A DNA stretch of 45,757 bases. Origin: Candidatus Dojkabacteria bacterium. Its GTDB lineage: Bacteria > Patescibacteriota > Dojkabacteria > B142 > WJKM01. The notes beneath the pieces were generated by a model that was not told where the DNA came from, made no database searches, and saw nothing but the letters and a program-made list of their open reading frames with translations. A program made the translations under genes and the position numbers. The stretch spans positions 77,648 to 123,404 of the forward strand of contig WJKM01000023.1 of NCBI GenBank assembly GCA_014729085.1. The letters are read 5' to 3'. Shown piece after piece: positions 53 to 41,827 of this stretch; within the stretch, counting starts at the first letter, position 1, and each line of letters opens with the position of its first letter.

Positions 53-220
53 CTCAACTTGCCTGCTGTTAGGCAGGTGAAAGGTTAGTGAAAACGATCT
101 CCTGTAAGGAGAGAAGCTTGAATTTACCTGAATTAGTCCTCCGTAATCACGTCACTCGTGATGAAGGAGGAAACTCCTAACTATTCTTATACTTATTCAA
201 ACTGAATTTTTTTCGAAGAG

Positions 221-292
221 CTCCGCGGGGGAGACTTGAACTCCCAACCAATCGGTTAACAGCCGAGTGCTCTACCATTGAGCTACCGCGGA
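221..292 (-). tRNA. tRNA-Asn(GUU), copy 1
   Basis: Minus strand TCCGCGG TA GCTC AATGGTA GAGC A CTCGG CTGTTAA CCGAT TGGTT GGGAG TTCAAGT CTCCC CCGCGGA G; full cloverleaf, anticodon GTT, no encoded CCA. Confidence 0.95.
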
Positions 293-24522: not shown

Positions 24523-24551
24523 TTGATTCTAGAAGGAATTCCCTATATAAT
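24523..24551 (+). promoter_or_regulatory. Promoter of Thr-attenuated operon
   Basis: TTGATT (24523-24528) - 17 nt - TATAAT (24546-24551); predicted TSS about 24558-24559, at the leader ATG. Confidence 0.75.
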
Positions 24552-24558
24552 AGTGAAA

Positions 24559-24606
24559 ATGAAAATCAAAAGTATAAATACAACAAGAAGCACCACAACC
24601 CCTTAA
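24559..24606 (+). CDS. Thr-rich leader peptide 1: MKIKSINTTRSTTTP*
   Basis: ATG AAA ATC AAA AGT ATA AAT ACA ACA AGA AGC ACC ACA ACC CCT TAA; 5 of 15 codons Thr; followed by attenuator structures. Confidence 0.8.
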   Translation: MKIKSINTTRSTTTP

Positions 24607-24645
24607 GAAATAGAAGGGAGGCTTTTGTATTTATTTCGAATTAGT

Positions 24646-24670
24646 AAACCTCCTAAAAGAGGTTTTTTTT
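24646..24670 (+). terminator. Attenuator terminator 1
   Basis: AAACCTC-ctaaaa-GAGGTTT plus T8 tract; alternative pairing of GGGAGG (24616-24621) with CCTCCT (24649-24654). Confidence 0.88.
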
Positions 24671-24685
24671 ATTTAAAAAGACAAA

Positions 24686-24745
24686 ATGACAATAATACAT
24701 TCCAAAAAAACAACTACTACCTTGATAACCTTAAGAAAGGGGTAG
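24686..24745 (+). CDS. Thr-rich leader peptide 2: MTIIHSKKTTTTLITLRKG*
   Basis: ATG ACA ATA ATA CAT TCC AAA AAA ACA ACT ACT ACC TTG ATA ACC TTA AGA AAG GGG TAG; four consecutive Thr codons, 6 of 19 Thr. Confidence 0.8.
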   Translation: MTIIHSKKTTTTLITLRKG

Positions 24746-24769
24746 TTTTTCCTATATTTTTTATTTTAG

Positions 24770-24796
24770 AACTCCCCTGAAAAGGGGAGTTTTTTT
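24770..24796 (+). terminator. Attenuator terminator 2
   Basis: AACTCCCCT-GAAA-AGGGGAGTT, 9-bp stem with GAAA tetraloop and T tract; 5' arm alternatively pairs AGGGGtAGTT (24738-24747). Confidence 0.92.
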
Positions 24797-24807
24797 ATAT
24801 ACATATT

Positions 24808-26631
24808 ATGAACGAACAAATACAACAAGCAAACATTCAACTTGAACAACCTCCTATCGATTTATTTGCTAGTGTAGAACATGCTCATAAGGACATGGGA
24901 GCGGAACAATATATCTCTTTTGATGCATTCCAACAATGGCTTAACTCAAGAGGATTCGAAGTAAAAGCAAACCCAAAAACTGCTGGAGGATTTATCTATG
25001 ATACTAATACTCAATACGTGGGATACATAAGGCCTCCTTTTTGGCGAACTAATAAAGGTGATCCAAATCTCATGCCTTCTGATATACAAGAAATTGAACC
25101 AATCAGGGAACGTTCCAATAATTATCAAAAAGTTAAATCTGGCTTTGAGTTAGAAATCTTTGGAATTAAACAAGAAAAAAAGGATGGAGAAATCATGGCA
25201 AGTCTCTTTGAGAACGGTCTAGATCTAGAAGGGAGAATAAATAATAATAACGCAGATAATGAAATACCAATTATTGATTTTGACTCAAAGTTTAGAGCAT
25301 TGCCCTCAAATTTAAGGGAAATACGTTTCGGAAGGGAAATGGCTAAATATACAATCGAAATCAACGGGCATCCTACCTCAAATCCTATTAAAGGAGGTTT
25401 ATCTTTTCTACGTAATCAACAGGTATTAGCCGAAATTTTTGATGATCATGGTTGGTTCCTTTGTCCTATTTCTGCATTTTCGCACAGACCCTTTCGGGCT
25501 TCGGATATTTCTAATGATAGTTACTTGCAAAGAATTGTTCTCAATAATGAAATGTGGCCTAGAGAGAAATCTTTACATTATGTTGGTAATTCTGCACAAT
25601 TTCATTGTGAAATTTTAAATGAAAAAGCTGGATTAACTGCTCTCAATCTTTATCAATTGGTTTATCCTCTAACTGTGGGTATTTCACTTGCAAGTCCCTT
25701 TATGCACGGAAAAACAAATCCAAATTTAAAAACAATCTTAGTAGATCAAGCACAGCTGGGGAAAGATAAAGACCCAAATATTATAAAGACATTGGATAAT
25801 GAAGGATTTCTCTCAGTCAGAGAAGGTACGAGATTTCTAGCTGGAATAGATTCAGGTATTTTACATGAACCTTTTCCAGAAAACCCAGATGACTATATAG
25901 AACTCGTAGAACAAAAATTAAATTCCGGAGATATACCTCATCCTGATCGAGGAGGTGGGCAACAAGCGGACAGATTCAAATTCAGCTTGCATACTTTAGA
26001 AGTATCTAATATGGATACATTCGCTGGTAATACTTTAAAATTTCTTTCTGCGCAAGAATTTTCCAAGGCACTTATGTGGAAACTCCAAGTGTATGGTTCA
26101 AACCAACGAGGTATTGCAAGTCTCTGCGACAGATTCCCTTCTCTTTTTAAATACCCTGTTGATAAAACGCTTCTAGACCATGTTAGGCGGAACGCACTAG
26201 AGGTAACTAAAGATGGTCTAGATGCTAAATTAGTAGGAGTTGACGGAAATCTATACGAAGCGCAAGAGCTCTTCTACGAATTGTTAGATTTTGTTAACGA
26301 ACCCATACCAGAACTTCAATATTACGGTTTACCATTCAACGTAATCAGAGAACTAATAAAAAGTAGTGAAATTCCATCCCAAGACGATTTTATTCGATAT
26401 CTGGATGAAGAAGGACTTCCTTCAGTTTATGGATATTACGATAGCGGAATCGGTACAGCAGCACATTGGCTAAAAGCGCGAGCAAATACTTTAGTTAAAG
26501 AATTCAATATGCCAGAAGGAGACGCTGTCGAAAATTGCCTCATTGACCTTGGAAAAAGTTATCATAGACATTTGAAACAAATATACGGAAAAGATATTGA
26601 AAGATTATTCTCATCATATAAAGAACCATGA
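24808..26631 (+). CDS. GCS2-like (glutamate-cysteine ligase/YbdK superfamily) carboxylate-amine ligase
   Basis: GFELEIFGI, FGREMAKYTIEINGHPTSNP, NSAQFHCEIL, LTVGISLASPFMHGKT, HTLEVSNMDTF in the expected order. Confidence 0.65.
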   Translation: MNEQIQQANIQLEQPPIDLFASVEHAHKDMGAEQYISFDAFQQWLNSRGFEVKANPKTAGGFIYDTNTQYVGYIRPPFWRTNKGDPNLMPSDIQEIEPIRERSNNYQKVKSGFELEIFGIKQEKKDGEIMASLFENGLDLEGRINNNNADNEIPIIDFDSKFRALPSNLREIRFGREMAKYTIEINGHPTSNPIKGGLSFLRNQQVLAEIFDDHGWFLCPISAFSHRPFRASDISNDSYLQRIVLNNEMWPREKSLHYVGNSAQFHCEILNEKAGLTALNLYQLVYPLTVGISLASPFMHGKTNPNLKTILVDQAQLGKDKDPNIIKTLDNEGFLSVREGTRFLAGIDSGILHEPFPENPDDYIELVEQKLNSGDIPHPDRGGGQQADRFKFSLHTLEVSNMDTFAGNTLKFLSAQEFSKALMWKLQVYGSNQRGIASLCDRFPSLFKYPVDKTLLDHVRRNALEVTKDGLDAKLVGVDGNLYEAQELFYELLDFVNEPIPELQYYGLPFNVIRELIKSSEIPSQDDFIRYLDEEGLPSVYGYYDSGIGTAAHWLKARANTLVKEFNMPEGDAVENCLIDLGKSYHRHLKQIYGKDIERLFSSYKEP

Positions 26632-34353: not shown

Positions 34354-34851
34354 ATGTTTAAAAAAGGAGAATTAGTTATATACCCAGGACATGGTGCTGG
34401 AAAAATAAAAAAAACTTTCAAACAAAAGTTCAATGATGAAATGAAAAAGTATTATAAAATAGCTTTTTTTGACGCTGACATTGAACTCTCTCTTCCTGTC
34501 GAGAACGCAGAACATCTTGGACTAAGAAAACCAACTACCAAAAAAGATTTGAAAACTATGCTGAAAAGCATCAACAAAAAAACAAGATATACAAAAAAAA
34601 TTGAGGACGGCTTGCAAGATAAAATGAAAAAGGCAATACATAATGGTGAAACAGACCTTATCATCAAAAATCTTAAACGACTAAAAACAGTAAGGAAGAA
34701 AAGAAAAAAGGAAGGCAAATCATTTAAAACAACTAATTCACGGCTTATTTCCAGAGCTATTGAATTTCTTAAATCAGAGGTTAGTTTGGTACTTGGAGAT
34801 AAATATGTAGAAAGATTTGATCTAAATCAAGAGTCGGCTCTATATGGATGA
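34354..34851 (+). CDS. CarD/CdnL-family transcriptional regulator
   Basis: MFKKGELVIYPGHGAGKIKKTF...YYKIAFFDADIELSLPVENAEHLGLRKP. Confidence 0.85.
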   Translation: MFKKGELVIYPGHGAGKIKKTFKQKFNDEMKKYYKIAFFDADIELSLPVENAEHLGLRKPTTKKDLKTMLKSINKKTRYTKKIEDGLQDKMKKAIHNGETDLIIKNLKRLKTVRKKRKKEGKSFKTTNSRLISRAIEFLKSEVSLVLGDKYVERFDLNQESALYG

Positions 34852-34921: not shown

Positions 34922-34993
34922 ACTGAGCGGGTAGGACTCGAACCTACAATCCTCCGGTTAACAGCCGGACGCATTACCATTATGCTACCGCTC
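34922..34993 (-). tRNA. tRNA-Asn(GUU), copy 2, downstream of an Asn-codon attenuator
   Basis: Minus strand TGAGCGG TA GCAT AATGGTA ATGC G TCCGG CTGTTAA CCGGA GGATT GTAGG TTCGAGT CCTAC CCGCTCA G; all stems paired; anticodon GTT; no encoded CCA. Confidence 0.96.
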
Positions 34994-35012
34994 AACAAAT
35001 TTCCTTACATAA

Positions 35013-35040
35013 CAAAAAATCCTCGATTTCTCGGGGATTT
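35013..35040 (-). terminator. Attenuator terminator upstream of tRNA-Asn copy 2
   Basis: Minus strand AAAATCCCCGA-GAAA-TCGAGGATTTTTT (one C-A mismatch), T6 tract, ending 20 nt before the tRNA 5' end. Confidence 0.85.
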
Positions 35041-35073
35041 TATATACTACTTGTTAGACAACCAAAATCCCAC

Positions 35074-35127
35074 CTAAAAAAGTGGATTATTATTTCGGTT
35101 ATTGTTAACAAATATCTTTATTTTCAT
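35074..35127 (-). CDS. Asn-rich leader peptide MKIKIFVNNNRNNNPLF*
   Basis: ATG AAA ATA AAG ATA TTT GTT AAC AAT AAC CGA AAT AAT AAT CCA CTT TTT TAG; 6 Asn codons in 7; followed by attenuator structures and tRNA-Asn. Confidence 0.85.
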   Translation of the reverse strand: MKIKIFVNNNRNNNPLF

Positions 35128-35133
35128 ACCATT

Positions 35134-35163
35134 ATTATATCAAAGAAGATTTATTTTTCACAA
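35134..35163 (-). promoter_or_regulatory. Promoter of Asn leader/tRNA-Asn unit
   Basis: Minus strand TTGTGA - 18 nt - TATAAT, 6 nt before the leader ATG, so predicted TSS at or near the ATG. Confidence 0.7.
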
Positions 35164-35268: not shown

Positions 35269-36468
35269 ATGAAAAATAAATTTCATTTAGCACTTATCTT
35301 ATTTTCCACTTTCTTTCTTATTACCTCGTTTTATAATACAGCTCGTGCATATCTTAAATTTGAAAATCTGGGAATAAACTCAACCGAATCTGAGCCTACC
35401 AGTATTGGAGAGTATTCCAAACCATATGACGGAAGTTTTACAAAACTTGCTATAGAGGTACCTGAAGTTGTCAACCCAGGACAAGACTTTACCTTAAAAT
35501 ACATTTTTTCAAGCCGATATCTCGATATGGATGTGCACCAATGCTCTATCTATCCTGTCATCATCAATAAGAATCAAGAAACAAATTTAATTGGGACAAT
35601 GACTAATCAAATTTTTACTTATCAATATCTTCCGGGTATGGAATTAGATGAAACAAGTAAAAACTGGGAATCAGTTACTGTACAAGCCGGAGATACATAT
35701 ACTGGTTTTGATTTTGATGAACATTTTTACTTTGAAGGTTATGATCAAGGTTCTACATGGGGTCCTCTCCAGCAAGTTGTTGAACAAGATATTAAATTTA
35801 ATGATACTTTAGATATAGGTGATAAAATTAGACTCGATGTTTATTGCTTCTCTCATCTAGATAATCTATTTATTCACGGTTATACAACAACTTGGATAGG
35901 AGACGCACCAGAAAAATTGTTTGTTGATGTCACAGACAAAAATTATCAGTACTATGACGCAATACAATATGCAAAAGAAAACTATATCGTACATGGCTTT
36001 TCCGACAACACATTTCGTCCAGACAACTATATTACAAGAGGAGAATTTACTAAAGTTATAATTAGATCACAGTTTTCACAATCTGAAATTGACGACTGTA
36101 AAACACTTGCTTTTCCAGACATTACTTCATCCAATGTCTTTAAAAACTATATTTGCGTAGCATCTAAACATAATATAGTAAATGGCTTTACGGATGGAAC
36201 ATATAAAACAAATAATAATATAACCCTCGCAGAAGCTACAAAAATTATTTCTCATTCATTTGGCTTCACTGAAAATGTCGAGGAGGTTGAATCCATTAAC
36301 CCGGTTCATCAATTTAAACCATATATCATAGCTCTCGAAGAAAGGAACGCTTTTCCTTCTACAGATACTACCATGCTTAGAGATTTAACAAGAGGTGAAA
36401 TGGTCGAAATGATATATCGAATACTGGAAAACATAACAGACAAACCATCAGCTCAGATTTATCTTTAA
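35269..36468 (+). CDS. Secreted SLH-domain protein
   Basis: Signal peptide; VHGFSDNTFRPDNYITRGEFTKVIIR, VNGFTDGTYKTNNNITLAEATKII. Confidence 0.8.
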   Translation: MKNKFHLALILFSTFFLITSFYNTARAYLKFENLGINSTESEPTSIGEYSKPYDGSFTKLAIEVPEVVNPGQDFTLKYIFSSRYLDMDVHQCSIYPVIINKNQETNLIGTMTNQIFTYQYLPGMELDETSKNWESVTVQAGDTYTGFDFDEHFYFEGYDQGSTWGPLQQVVEQDIKFNDTLDIGDKIRLDVYCFSHLDNLFIHGYTTTWIGDAPEKLFVDVTDKNYQYYDAIQYAKENYIVHGFSDNTFRPDNYITRGEFTKVIIRSQFSQSEIDDCKTLAFPDITSSNVFKNYICVASKHNIVNGFTDGTYKTNNNITLAEATKIISHSFGFTENVEEVESINPVHQFKPYIIALEERNAFPSTDTTMLRDLTRGEMVEMIYRILENITDKPSAQIYL

Positions 36469-36474
36469 ATTAAT

Positions 36475-37920
36475 TTAAAGAAATTTTTCTTTCAACATTT
36501 TTTCTGCAAGTTTAGGATTTGCCTTTCCTTTGGATAACCTCATTACCTGTCCAACAAGGAACTGAATTGCATTAGGATTTTTTTCAAGACTTTTAACCAC
36601 CTTGGGGTTATCCTCAATTGCTTTATCGATAAACTCTTCAATTTGCTCTTTATCATTCACTACTTCAAGATCTTTATCTTCAATAATTGTTTCAACAGAT
36701 TTGCCAGTTTTAAAAGTCTGCTCTAAAACATTTTTTGCAATTGTCCCAGTAATTTTATTTGTTTTTATAGCTGAGATAAGTTCCAGTAAATCTTCGGGTT
36801 TTACCCTCAAGTCTTTATAAAGCACATCATTCTTCTTTTTTAATCTGGTTAATTCTCCTAGAATCCAATTTGCTATTTCTTGAGCATATTCATTAATATC
36901 CTCTACCTTAGATGCAGATTTCAAGCATGCTTCAAAAAAACTAGCCCTTGCTTTATTCCTTGCAATATTTTCAGCCGAATCGGGCTCTAAATCGTATTCC
37001 TTAATATACCTATCCTTTTTCTCCTGAGGAAGTTCAATTAAATCCTTTTTAATATCATCTAACCATTCTTCACTTATGAATATAGGTGGTATATCTGGTT
37101 CTGGAAAATATCTATAGTCATCAGACCCTTCTTTTACTCTCTGACTCACGGTATCCCCATCCATATTACGAAGTCCTCTTGTTTCCTGCCGCGGTGTTTC
37201 TCCCTTATCTAGCATTTTACTCTGCCGCTTAATTTCTTTCACAATGATTTTTTTCAAAACAGAAATAGATGCAATATTTTTGACTTCAACTTTGTAATCA
37301 GGAAGCCCCTTCTCTCCCGGCCTTTTAAGAGAAATATTTAGCTCATATCTCATCTGGCCTTTTTCCATATCCGCATCACCAATTCCGAGATAACGTACAA
37401 TTTGCCTCAATCTTTTAGCAAATTTATCAACTTCCTTAACATCTACAAAATCAGGTTCTGTAACTATTTCGATCAATGGTACGCCTGACTTATTAAAATC
37501 AAGAAGAGTTTTTTTCCTTTCATACATACTTTTACCTGTATCCTCTTCCATATGAACTCTAGTTATTCTTATTCTCCTCGAATCTCCGTCTATATCAAAT
37601 TCAATGAAGCCTTTTTCTCCAACTGGTACATCATACTGAGAAATCTGGTAACCTTTTGGTAGATCAGGATAAAAATAATTTTTCCGGTCAAATTTTGTTG
37701 TTTTATTAATATTGCAATTCAAGGCCAAAGCAAGCAATATACATTTTTCTAATCCTTCTTTATTCGGGACAGGTAATGCACCTGGAAGGCCTAAGCATGT
37801 AGGACAAGTATGACTATTTGGTTGCGAACCGAAATATTCAGCAGAACAAGTACAAAACATTTTTGATTTTGTCTTAGGTTGAAGATGCACTTCAAATCCA
37901 ATTATAGGTTGGTACTTCAT
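36475..37920 (-). CDS. gatB: Asp/Glu-tRNA(Asn/Gln) amidotransferase subunit B
   Basis: GFEVHLQPKTKSKMFCTCS, CPTCLGLPGALPVPN, KNYFYPDLPKGYQISQYD. Confidence 0.97.
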   Translation of the reverse strand: MKYQPIIGFEVHLQPKTKSKMFCTCSAEYFGSQPNSHTCPTCLGLPGALPVPNKEGLEKCILLALALNCNINKTTKFDRKNYFYPDLPKGYQISQYDVPVGEKGFIEFDIDGDSRRIRITRVHMEEDTGKSMYERKKTLLDFNKSGVPLIEIVTEPDFVDVKEVDKFAKRLRQIVRYLGIGDADMEKGQMRYELNISLKRPGEKGLPDYKVEVKNIASISVLKKIIVKEIKRQSKMLDKGETPRQETRGLRNMDGDTVSQRVKEGSDDYRYFPEPDIPPIFISEEWLDDIKKDLIELPQEKKDRYIKEYDLEPDSAENIARNKARASFFEACLKSASKVEDINEYAQEIANWILGELTRLKKKNDVLYKDLRVKPEDLLELISAIKTNKITGTIAKNVLEQTFKTGKSVETIIEDKDLEVVNDKEQIEEFIDKAIEDNPKVVKSLEKNPNAIQFLVGQVMRLSKGKANPKLAEKMLKEKFL

Positions 37921-39852: not shown

Positions 39853-41298
39853 CTAGGATTCATTGATTATCTTTTCAGTATTTGCTGCAATTCCCAACAA
39901 CTTAGCCTCTGAAAATTTTTCACTCATAATCTGGAAGCCAATGGGCAAACCTTCCTTGTTGTATCCGCAATTTATACTTATTGCTGGACATCCAGCGATA
40001 TTTGCATTTACTGTATAAACATCGGCTAGATACATGGCTAACGGATCATTTGATTTTTCACCTAATTTAAAGGCTACAAAAGGTGAAGTTGGTCCAACTA
40101 GGATATCTACTTCTTTGAATAGCTCCATAATTTCCCTTGTAATCTTTACCCTAACTCTCGATGCATGTTTATAATACTCATCCGCATATCCAGCACTTAA
40201 TGCATATGTCCCAAGCATAATTCTTCTTTTCACTTCCGGTTCTAAATATTTGCTTCTGGTCTTCAACAGATTTTGCATATAATTATCTTCCTCTTTTCTT
40301 CCAAATCGAATTCCATCATATCTAGCCATATTTGAGGAGATTTCAGAAGGAACTAGAATATAATAAACAGAAATTCCCTGCTTCAAAATGGGAAGCGAAA
40401 CATCAATTATTTCTGCTCCATTTTTTTTCATTTTTGTAATTGTTTTCTGGACCGCTTGTTTAACATCTTGTGTAATTCCCTGTTCAAAATATTGTTTGGG
40501 AACACCTACTTTAACTTTATCGAGGTTCTTAATTTCATTGAGTTTTTTAAAATAATTTTCAACTGGTAAATCATATGTTGTTGCATCCTTCGAGTCCTTA
40601 CCTGCGATAATTTCCTCAATAAAGGCAGCTTCCCTTACTGTATGTGAAAGGATTCCGGGAGTATCAAAAGAGGATGCCATTGCAATTAAACCATACCTTG
40701 AATTCCTGCCATATGTAACTTTCAGTCCTACTAAACCGCAAAGTGATGCCGGTTGTCTTACAGAGCCCCCCGTATCTGTCCCTATTGCAAAAAGGCCAAT
40801 GCCTGCAGCAAGTGAAGCAGCTGCCCCGGAACTTGATCCTCCTGGTACCCTTGTATTATCTATAGGATTTAGAGTAGGACCAAAACCTGAATTTTCTCCG
40901 CTTGCACCATAAGCGAAGGGGTCACAATTAGTTTTGCCAATGATTACAGCCCCCTCCTCTTCCAACTTCTCTACAACAGTCGCTGAATAAGGTGCAATAA
41001 AATCCTTTAAAATCTTAGACGCAGCTGTAGTTCTAATTCCTTTGGTCATTAATATATCTTTTACAGTACAGGGGATTCCAGCAAGCAATCCAACCTTTTT
41101 GCCCTCTTGAATTTTTTGATCTACTTCCCTAGCTTTTTCTATTGAATCATCTAAAACTGTAATAAAAGCATTTAAATCCTTGCCTTTTGTATTTGCCAGT
41201 TCAAGATGATAACGAACTAGCTCCTCTGACTTTAATTTCTGTTTTTTAATTAGATCAATTGCTTCGAACAATCTAATCTTGGATAAATCTTTCATCAA
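39853..41298 (-). CDS. gatA: Asp/Glu-tRNA(Asn/Gln) amidotransferase subunit A
   Basis: GIPCTVKDILMTKG, PGGSSSGAAASLAAGIGLFAIGTDTGGSVRQPASLCG amidase signature. Confidence 0.97.
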   Translation of the reverse strand: MMKDLSKIRLFEAIDLIKKQKLKSEELVRYHLELANTKGKDLNAFITVLDDSIEKAREVDQKIQEGKKVGLLAGIPCTVKDILMTKGIRTTAASKILKDFIAPYSATVVEKLEEEGAVIIGKTNCDPFAYGASGENSGFGPTLNPIDNTRVPGGSSSGAAASLAAGIGLFAIGTDTGGSVRQPASLCGLVGLKVTYGRNSRYGLIAMASSFDTPGILSHTVREAAFIEEIIAGKDSKDATTYDLPVENYFKKLNEIKNLDKVKVGVPKQYFEQGITQDVKQAVQKTITKMKKNGAEIIDVSLPILKQGISVYYILVPSEISSNMARYDGIRFGRKEEDNYMQNLLKTRSKYLEPEVKRRIMLGTYALSAGYADEYYKHASRVRVKITREIMELFKEVDILVGPTSPFVAFKLGEKSNDPLAMYLADVYTVNANIAGCPAISINCGYNKEGLPIGFQIMSEKFSEAKLLGIAANTEKIINES

Positions 41299-41318: not shown

Positions 41319-41615
41319 TCAAAGTACTTTACTAATCGCAAAAAAATCATCTTTCTTTCTACCCTCAGTTGCGTTTAAAAATACATTTTTATCTTCCAAA
41401 CTTGCTTCTGACTTATCTTCACGGAGTCTCTCTCCTTCATAATCAAATAAATGTGAAATGTATTCTGTATTTTGTACATCAACATTCTTGATTTTATCTA
41501 TATATTCCAGTACAGAAGCCATCTGTTCTTTGTATATCCTAACCTCCTCTTTAGATAAATCAAGCTTTGCAAGATCAGCTATTTTTTTAACTAATTTATC
41601 GTCTATTTTAACCAT
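41319..41615 (-). CDS. gatC: Asp/Glu-tRNA(Asn/Gln) amidotransferase subunit C
   Basis: VKKIADLAKLDLSKEEVRIYKEQMASVLEYIDKIKNVD; adjacent to gatA. Confidence 0.93.
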   Translation of the reverse strand: MVKIDDKLVKKIADLAKLDLSKEEVRIYKEQMASVLEYIDKIKNVDVQNTEYISHLFDYEGERLREDKSEASLEDKNVFLNATEGRKKDDFFAISKVL

Positions 41616-41671
41616 AATCAGATATTAAATAAAAAATTACATTATCAAAATATTATACTTATACTTATTAA

Positions 41672-41700
41672 AAAAAGAAAAATCCCTACTGTGGGATTTT
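41672..41700 (-). terminator. Attenuator terminator upstream of gatC
   Basis: Minus strand AAAATCCC-acagta-GGGATTTTTcTTTTTT. Confidence 0.88.
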
Positions 41701-41738: not shown

Positions 41739-41789
41739 CTATTCGGAAGAATTTCCATTTTGATTATTTTGTTTAAGGTATTTGTACAT
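41739..41789 (-). CDS. Asn/Gln-rich leader peptide MYKYLKQNNQNGNSSE*
   Basis: ATG TAC AAA TAC CTT AAA CAA AAT AAT CAA AAT GGA AAT TCT TCC GAA TAG; six Asn/Gln codons in 7; segments for attenuation follow. Confidence 0.83.
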   Translation of the reverse strand: MYKYLKQNNQNGNSSE

Positions 41790-41798
41790 TATGTTTAT

Positions 41799-41827
41799 AT
41801 TATACAGTACAAACAAAATATTTCCAA
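41799..41827 (-). promoter_or_regulatory. Promoter of gatCA operon leader
   Basis: Minus strand TTGGAA (41827-41822) - 17 nt - TATAAT (41804-41799), 9 nt before the leader ATG. Confidence 0.7.

Follow-up and report, generated by a model that had tools for sequence, protein, structure and literature searches.

Can a bacterial tRNA gene be controlled through translation of its own cognate codons? This question is raised by a short leader upstream of a tRNA-Asn(GUU) gene in a 1.6 Mb genome of Candidatus Dojkabacteria (WS6). The leader lies in a stretch of DNA of 45,757 nucleotides from that genome; we refer to this whole stretch as the window. We know of no described case in which a tRNA gene is controlled in this manner. 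The original prediction, made from the sequence of the window, was that a ribosome stalled on a run of Asn codons in a short upstream reading frame would favor an antiterminator and thereby raise transcription of the tRNA.

A candidate attenuator precedes tRNA-Asn(GUU)

The elements that had been proposed for the 5′ end of this locus were all present on the minus strand: TTGTGA and TATAAT boxes separated by an 18-nt spacer, followed by an ATG at 35127, 6 nt past the TATAAT box. The reading frame that begins there comprises 17 codons, six of which specify Asn; at the Asn frequency of the window, the G+C content of which is 32%, the probability of at least six Asn in 16 residues is 2e-4. The features of the locus are as follows, with the evidence for each given in parentheses (the swap test is described below).

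35134-35163, minus strand: putative promoter, TTGTGA (35163-35158), 18-nt spacer and TATAAT (35139-35134) (sequence)
35074-35127, minus strand: leader peptide ORF MKIKIFVNNNRNNNPLF* (sequence; Asn runs in all 17 homologous leaders)
35080-35106, minus strand: segment 1, Asn codons included (fold; swap test of 1:2, 0/20000 permutations as good)
35058-35075, minus strand: segment 2, of which the part GGGATTTT (35071-35064) pairs with segment 3 (fold; swap test)
35031-35041, minus strand: segment 3, the 5′ arm of the terminator, also used by the 2:3 antiterminator (swap test; sequence)
35014-35026, minus strand: segment 4, the 3′ arm of the terminator, and T6 (fold; sequence)
34922-34995, minus strand: tRNA-Asn(GUU), the putatively regulated gene, of a second gene type (U1-A72, G73; D arm TAGCATAATGGTAATGC) (ARAGORN; Rfam tRNA, 72.5 bits)

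The leader RNA folds at -33.4 kcal/mol, compared with -16.7 +/- 2.7 kcal/mol for dinucleotide shuffles (z -6.1; 0/200). The 1:2 helix, in which AACAATAACCGAAAT...CCAC pairs with GTGGGATTTTGGTTGT in the computed fold, exists as originally proposed but is longer than first described, because the Asn codons themselves take part in the pairing. Similarly, the 2:3 complementarity is perfect, between GGGATTTT of segment 2 and AAAATCCC of segment 3, but the coordinates first assigned to segment 3 were off by one, and should read 35041-35034. The intrinsic terminator (AAAATCC-C-CGA/GAAA/TCG-A-GGATTTT, 35041-35014 on the minus strand including T6) was borne out by sequence and folding, and T6 ends 20 nt before tRNA-Asn(GUU); its 3:4 hairpin has an internal mismatch, is absent from the list produced by a simple consensus scan, and was recovered by folding.

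The leader is flanked on its upstream side by a gene for an SLH-domain protein (35269-36468), and the tRNA on its downstream side by a gene for a CarD-like protein (34354-34851); as both lie on the opposite strand, tRNA-Asn is the sole known product of this locus. A tRNA search of the genome listed 44 matches, and for 43 distinct genes we examined the 260 nt upstream of each. A cognate-codon leader together with a terminator was found at one of these 43 genes, the tRNA-Asn at 34922-34995, and at none of the other 42. The window also contains a tRNA-Asn gene of another type:

220-292, minus strand: tRNA-Asn(GUU), housekeeping type, without leader (tRNA search)

Housekeeping-type tRNA-Asn genes likewise have no leader across the Dojkabacteria class, nor do the tRNA-Asn genes of the same second type in G005, G007, G011, and G051. 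Chance as the origin of the Asn run was considered and is ruled out, given the homologues described below and the lack of a comparable leader at the other 42 tRNA genes that we examined.

Homologous leaders in other Dojkabacteria

We examined homologous loci for loss of the Asn codon run or of the alternative pairings. All retained them: 17 Asn leaders in 15 Dojkabacteria genomes (G000, G001, G002 with two, G003, G004, G008, G009 with two, G016, G018, G024, G034, G038, G041, G044, and G053) have a short ORF rich in Asn codons and bounded by a start and a stop, along with the alternative helices and a terminator. Sixteen of these leaders precede tRNA-Asn, and the remaining one, from G009, immediately precedes asnS. 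The layout is the same and the sequence differs among these relatives, as in MLTAVLNNNNQNHTS, MKIQKLNNNNNNSNAF, MRKQINNNNNSNLNITQL, MNRIQLNNNNNDNYCL, MRTILNNNNNNSNSI, and MVLFNLNSNNNLNSSV. This comparison among Dojkabacteria supports the reading of the locus as an attenuator. The G009 asnS, G044, G018, and G016 leaders are independent recoveries, because they were found via a model trained on other leaders or by a separate scan. In G018 the tRNA adjoining the leader looks broken, and an intact copy lies further on. The source genomes are metagenome-assembled, and some are related to one another; ancestry is common to the species, and the 17 leaders are therefore not 17 independent events.

Looking outside Dojkabacteria, a pattern scan of 84,980 species genomes returned 18 matches, of which only 7 had a leader ORF and terminator, all of them Dojkabacteria/WS6 records, with the rest being chance or coding sequence. 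No further real case emerged from 379 genomes of the phylum, where three matches outside the class looked like chance from their sequence, and a strict promoter and terminator pattern applied across the class found little.

The position of the promoter bears on how these leaders may be translated. A TATAAT-like box lies 6-9 nt before the start codon in 15 of the 17 Asn leaders; the distance is exactly 6 nt in over half of the 17, and 7-9 nt in most of the rest. Among the 18 leaders examined, those of G034 and G016 show no clear -10 box near the start codon, and a Shine-Dalgarno-like motif is missing from all 18. Given that the box sits so close to the start codon and that a Shine-Dalgarno motif is absent, these data suggest that the leader ORF is translated leaderless, from the RNA 5′ end. 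That transcription begins past the terminator is improbable in the window, where T6 and the tRNA are only 20 nt apart, and also in G004 and G009; such a start is conceivable in G001 and G038, where the gap between terminator and tRNA is ~100 nt.

Several further observations concern the tRNA genes of these relatives. A tRNA-Asn of a third kind, whose variable loop is short and whose D arm is of the GTAACGGTAGC type, occurs at L211/L258 (G016), L208 (G018), L252 (G006), and L251 (G022); a leader is present in G016, and none was seen in G006 or G022. At L116 and L117 (G007 and G005, respectively), repeated blocks lie upstream of the second tRNA-Asn that has no leader, and those of G007 contain partial tRNA-Asn sequence. 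Lastly, at L031 (G002) a truncated tRNA 5′ half sits between the terminator and the intact tRNA-Asn, resembling a decayed tandem duplicate.

Coevolution of the helices and computed switching

Aligned with MAFFT, the leaders were too ragged for covariation to be scored column by column, and we therefore used a swap test, which asks whether a segment forms a more stable helix with the partner from its own species than with one from another species. Own partners were favored in the 1:2 helix (-14.7 kcal/mol own vs -10.6 foreign; 0/20000 permutations as good), the 2:3 helix (-15.3 vs -9.2; 0/20000), and the 3:4 helix (-11.2 vs -5.5; 0/20000), and the control pairs 1:3 and 2:4 showed no own-partner advantage. 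Kinship between species weakens the signal in this test and does not favor it. Coordinated changes can be seen directly in the segments, which include GGGG/CCCC/GGGG types, GAGAGGTAG/CTATCTCTC in G024, and CTGGCTTC/GAAGCTAG in the G009 asnS leader. The parts of the putative attenuator, their conservation, and the coevolution of their helices can thus be read from the sequences themselves.

We then computed structural ensembles with the ribosome placed at different positions. In all 18 leaders a stall favors 2:3 and a ribosome at the stop codon favors 3:4; before segment 4 is made, the antiterminator probability (segment 3 paired upstream) is 0.38-1.00 with the ribosome stalled on the Asn run and 0.00-0.36 with the ribosome at the stop codon. 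We compared the antiterminator with the result of shuffling the intervening region: roughly half of the 17 leaders fell below 0.05 individually, and the combined p was ~8e-12; the window leader, taken by itself, outperformed its shuffles only marginally (p 0.08). When segment 4 is included and equilibrium is assumed, a stall still switches most leaders. The terminator of the window leader is then opened only by a stall in the second NNN block, and in G001, G038, and G053 the terminator wins for most stall positions, so that kinetic (cotranscriptional) control would be needed there.

Genes downstream of the leaders

The products of the genes asnS, gatCAB, and non-discriminating aspS synthesize Asn-tRNA(Asn), either directly or through transamidation, and GatCAB serves both Gln and Asn tRNAs. 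These genes recur behind the leader and tRNA-Asn: gatC-gatA-gatB in G004 and G008, and in G024 with two other genes inside; asnS in G001 and G038, and in G003 after a UDP-glucose dehydrogenase gene; and non-discriminating aspS then asnS in G034 and G041. The G044 contig carrying the leader and tRNA and the contig carrying asnS end in identical tRNA-Asn sequence, and an operon split by assembly is therefore likely. No charging gene follows tRNA-Asn on the same strand in the window or at either G002 locus. No leader was seen at the window genome's own asnS (contig C19), and the G030 operon of tRNA-Asn, aspS, and asnS has none.

A second candidate attenuator in the window directly precedes gatC-gatA:

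41739-41804, minus strand: -10 box TATAAT (41804-41799) and leader ORF MYKYLKQNNQNGNSSE* (41789-41739), with Asn and Gln codons (model/scan; sequence)
41670-41700, minus strand: terminator of the second attenuator, AAAATCCC/ACAGTA/GGGATTTT (fold; sequence)
41319-41615, minus strand: gatC (Pfam GatC, 1.1e-10)
39853-41298, minus strand: gatA (60-63% identity to gatA of G004 and G015)
36475-37920, minus strand: putative gatB (recognized from its translated sequence)

Gln or Asp codons also occur in the leaders of G004, G008, G024, G034, and G041 and in the window gatC leader; leaders that precede gatCAB tend to hold Gln codons, and those that precede aspS hold Asp codons. This pattern is suggestive of Gln codons tracking gatCAB and Asp codons tracking aspS, and we grade it no higher because the cases are few and G009 and G018 are ambiguous. 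We also considered whether a leader is found on every gatCAB operon, which is not so: among 30 gatA loci scanned only those of G000 and G004 have one, in addition to G008 and G024, which were seen separately.

Leaders with other codon runs

The model trained on Asn leaders also identified leaders before synthetase genes (YYYYY before TyrRS, WW before TrpRS, MMM before MetRS, and HIH before HisRS), before biosynthetic genes (FFFFFF before prephenate dehydratase, IIVVVLLI before acetolactate synthase, and TITTFTT before threonine synthase), and before a PALP/LeuA-regulatory fusion (IIMII). These leaders lie in other Dojkabacteria, at loci L229, L231, L232, L233, L235, L236, L237, and L244. Since these codon runs precede matching synthetase or biosynthetic genes, the Asn leader appears to be one element of a larger attenuation regulon, and the match between codon run and gene across unrelated genes strongly supports the view that the Asn leader acts as it looks.

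A generic model applied to the window genome found tandem Met, Thr, and Tyr leaders together with leaders for Phe, Leu, Val, and Ile. In every case the downstream gene encodes one of a group of large uncharacterized proteins; Pfam gave a weak glutamate-cysteine ligase family 2 match to these proteins in the Tyr and Thr cases only. In this same genome (G000), leaders for Met (two), Leu, Tyr (two), Phe, Val, and Ile at loci L225, L226, L227, L296, L297, and L300 precede two groups of paralogous uncharacterized proteins of ~480-620 aa, and the codon runs suggest that each paralog serves a different amino acid. The window itself contains tandem Thr-codon leaders (24546-24796, plus strand), MKIKSINTTRSTTTP at 24559-24606 and MTIIHSKKTTTTLITLRKG at 24686-24745, each with its own terminator, which precede a 607-aa ORF (24808-26631, plus strand) with a marginal GCS2 match.

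Proposed mechanism and alternative explanations

The explanation that we favor, with a probability of nearly nine in ten, is that a ribosome-mediated transcription attenuator of the trp/his/pheST type controls the tRNA-Asn gene. What was found comprises a promoter just 5′ of a short ORF, a conserved cognate codon run, mutually exclusive 1:2, 2:3, and 3:4 helices, a computed switch upon stalling, and a terminator before the gene. RNA polymerase would start at or beside the ATG, and the ribosome would begin at the RNA 5′ end. With ample Asn-tRNA(Asn), the ribosome would clear the Asn codons and proceed to the stop, segment 2 would be occupied or else base-paired to segment 1, and formation of the 3:4 hairpin would halt transcription ahead of the tRNA. 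With too little Asn-tRNA(Asn), the ribosome would stall at the Asn run and mask segment 1, 2:3 would form first, and the polymerase would read into tRNA-Asn. In relatives, read-through would continue into the charging genes asnS, gatCAB, or non-discriminating aspS. In the window, gatC-gatA has its own Asn/Gln leader, so that tRNA and amidotransferase would rise together. We infer from the sequence that the promoter is used and the leader translated, that ribosomes stall on it, and how strongly and in which direction the locus responds, together with a benefit of raising tRNA when charging is low; more tRNA would help only if the tRNA, or the tRNA plus synthetase, is limiting.

It could also be proposed that the attenuator evolved for the charging enzymes (asnS, gatCAB, and aspS), that the tRNA simply rides along as the first gene of the operon, and that the window locus is a relic in which control no longer matters. 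Enzyme genes indeed follow the tRNA in at least eight genomes, and the G009 leader sits directly on asnS. We nevertheless consider this scenario unlikely, as the window and both G002 loci lack a following charging gene yet have an intact leader, helices, and terminator, and the tRNA comes first in 16 of the 17 leaders. The Gln or Asp codons in the leaders of G004, G008, G024, G034, G041, and the window gatC could be taken to mean that the leader senses stalled ribosomes generally, including those caused by antibiotic, cold, or loss of Gln or Asp, with the Asn codons merely placing the stall; these additional codons tend, however, to correspond to the additional substrates of the enzymes encoded downstream (Gln for GatCAB, Asp for AspRS), and this correspondence, albeit in few cases, suggests specific sensing and makes a general sensor quite improbable.

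A constitutive promoter followed by a terminator, with a hairpin that insulates or dampens the tRNA and a short ORF that is accidental in an A+T-rich genome, would be in keeping with the AT-rich nature of Asn codons, the 32% G+C of the window, and the p of 0.08 against shuffles for the window 2:3 helix alone. Such an arrangement is very improbable given that the Asn run, the ORF limits, and the three alternative helices are kept across families with covarying sequence, that none of the 42 remaining tRNA genes that we examined in the genome has the element, and that leaders with other codon runs stand before genes for the corresponding amino acids. A T-box, or a different RNA to which uncharged tRNA-Asn binds directly and which needs no translating ribosome, would follow the logic seen here, with termination upstream of tRNA and synthetase genes made sensitive to charging, but the leader is only ~110 nt long, an ORF with Asn codon runs is present in every case, and Rfam gave no T-box match at E up to 1, which together leave this reading hardly tenable.

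Building on ribosome-mediated attenuation at the tRNA-Asn gene, we find it reasonably probable that Dojkabacteria run an attenuation regulon of this kind for aminoacyl-tRNA supply, in which a tRNA gene would itself be regulated, with feedback on how its own codons are decoded, and leaders with mixed codon runs would match multi-substrate enzymes (Asn and Gln for GatCAB, Asp and Asn for non-discriminating AspRS). If this is true, control of a tRNA gene through its own cognate codons would constitute a direct homeostatic loop for decoding capacity. It would also suggest that an ultra-reduced candidate-phyla lineage relies on classical transcription-translation coupling, apparently with leaderless leader ORFs; Firmicutes use T-boxes for such control. 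Within the predicted set of attenuators, the codon runs would indicate the amino acid served by uncharacterized downstream genes.

Comparison with known systems

Searches of the open-access literature, which omits most subscription journals, found no description of a leader-peptide attenuator on a tRNA gene, nor one of attenuation in Dojkabacteria or candidate phyla. T-box riboswitches resemble the Asn leader in that tRNA charging decides termination upstream of synthetase genes, but they bind the tRNA directly and need no ORF, whereas the Asn leader has an ORF and no T-box motif was found in it. Identity with a T-box or a known Rfam leader was rejected, as an Rfam search to E 1 gave none; among the leader families (Trp_leader, His_leader, Thr_leader, and Phe_leader) none was over threshold, the best being Phe_leader at 24.7 bits against 55. 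Leaderless mRNAs, reviewed in PMC9031893, have a start codon at or near the 5′ end and no Shine-Dalgarno motif; the Asn leaders would probably resemble them, to judge from the distance between the -10 box and the ATG.

The closest parallels are with ribosome-mediated attenuators. Those of the trp, his, thr, and ilv operons share segments 1-4 with 1:2, 2:3, and 3:4 pairing, and the Asn codons lie in segment 1 just as the Trp codons of trpL do; the Asn leader differs in that its target is not a biosynthetic operon. Ribosome-mediated attenuators are also found on synthetase genes, including pheST in gamma-proteobacteria, trpS and leuS in Streptomyces (PMC1262725), and hisS paralogs in Bacillus, which have a his leader (PMC2965389). 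With these the Asn leader shares a cognate-codon leader ORF, an exclusive antiterminator and terminator, and control of the charging machinery, and it differs from them in its amino acid (Asn), its candidate-phyla host, its apparently leaderless leader ORF, and its first, sometimes only, product, which is a tRNA. The attenuator would thus work like those of a known class, and what appears to be new is the cognate tRNA as its first product.
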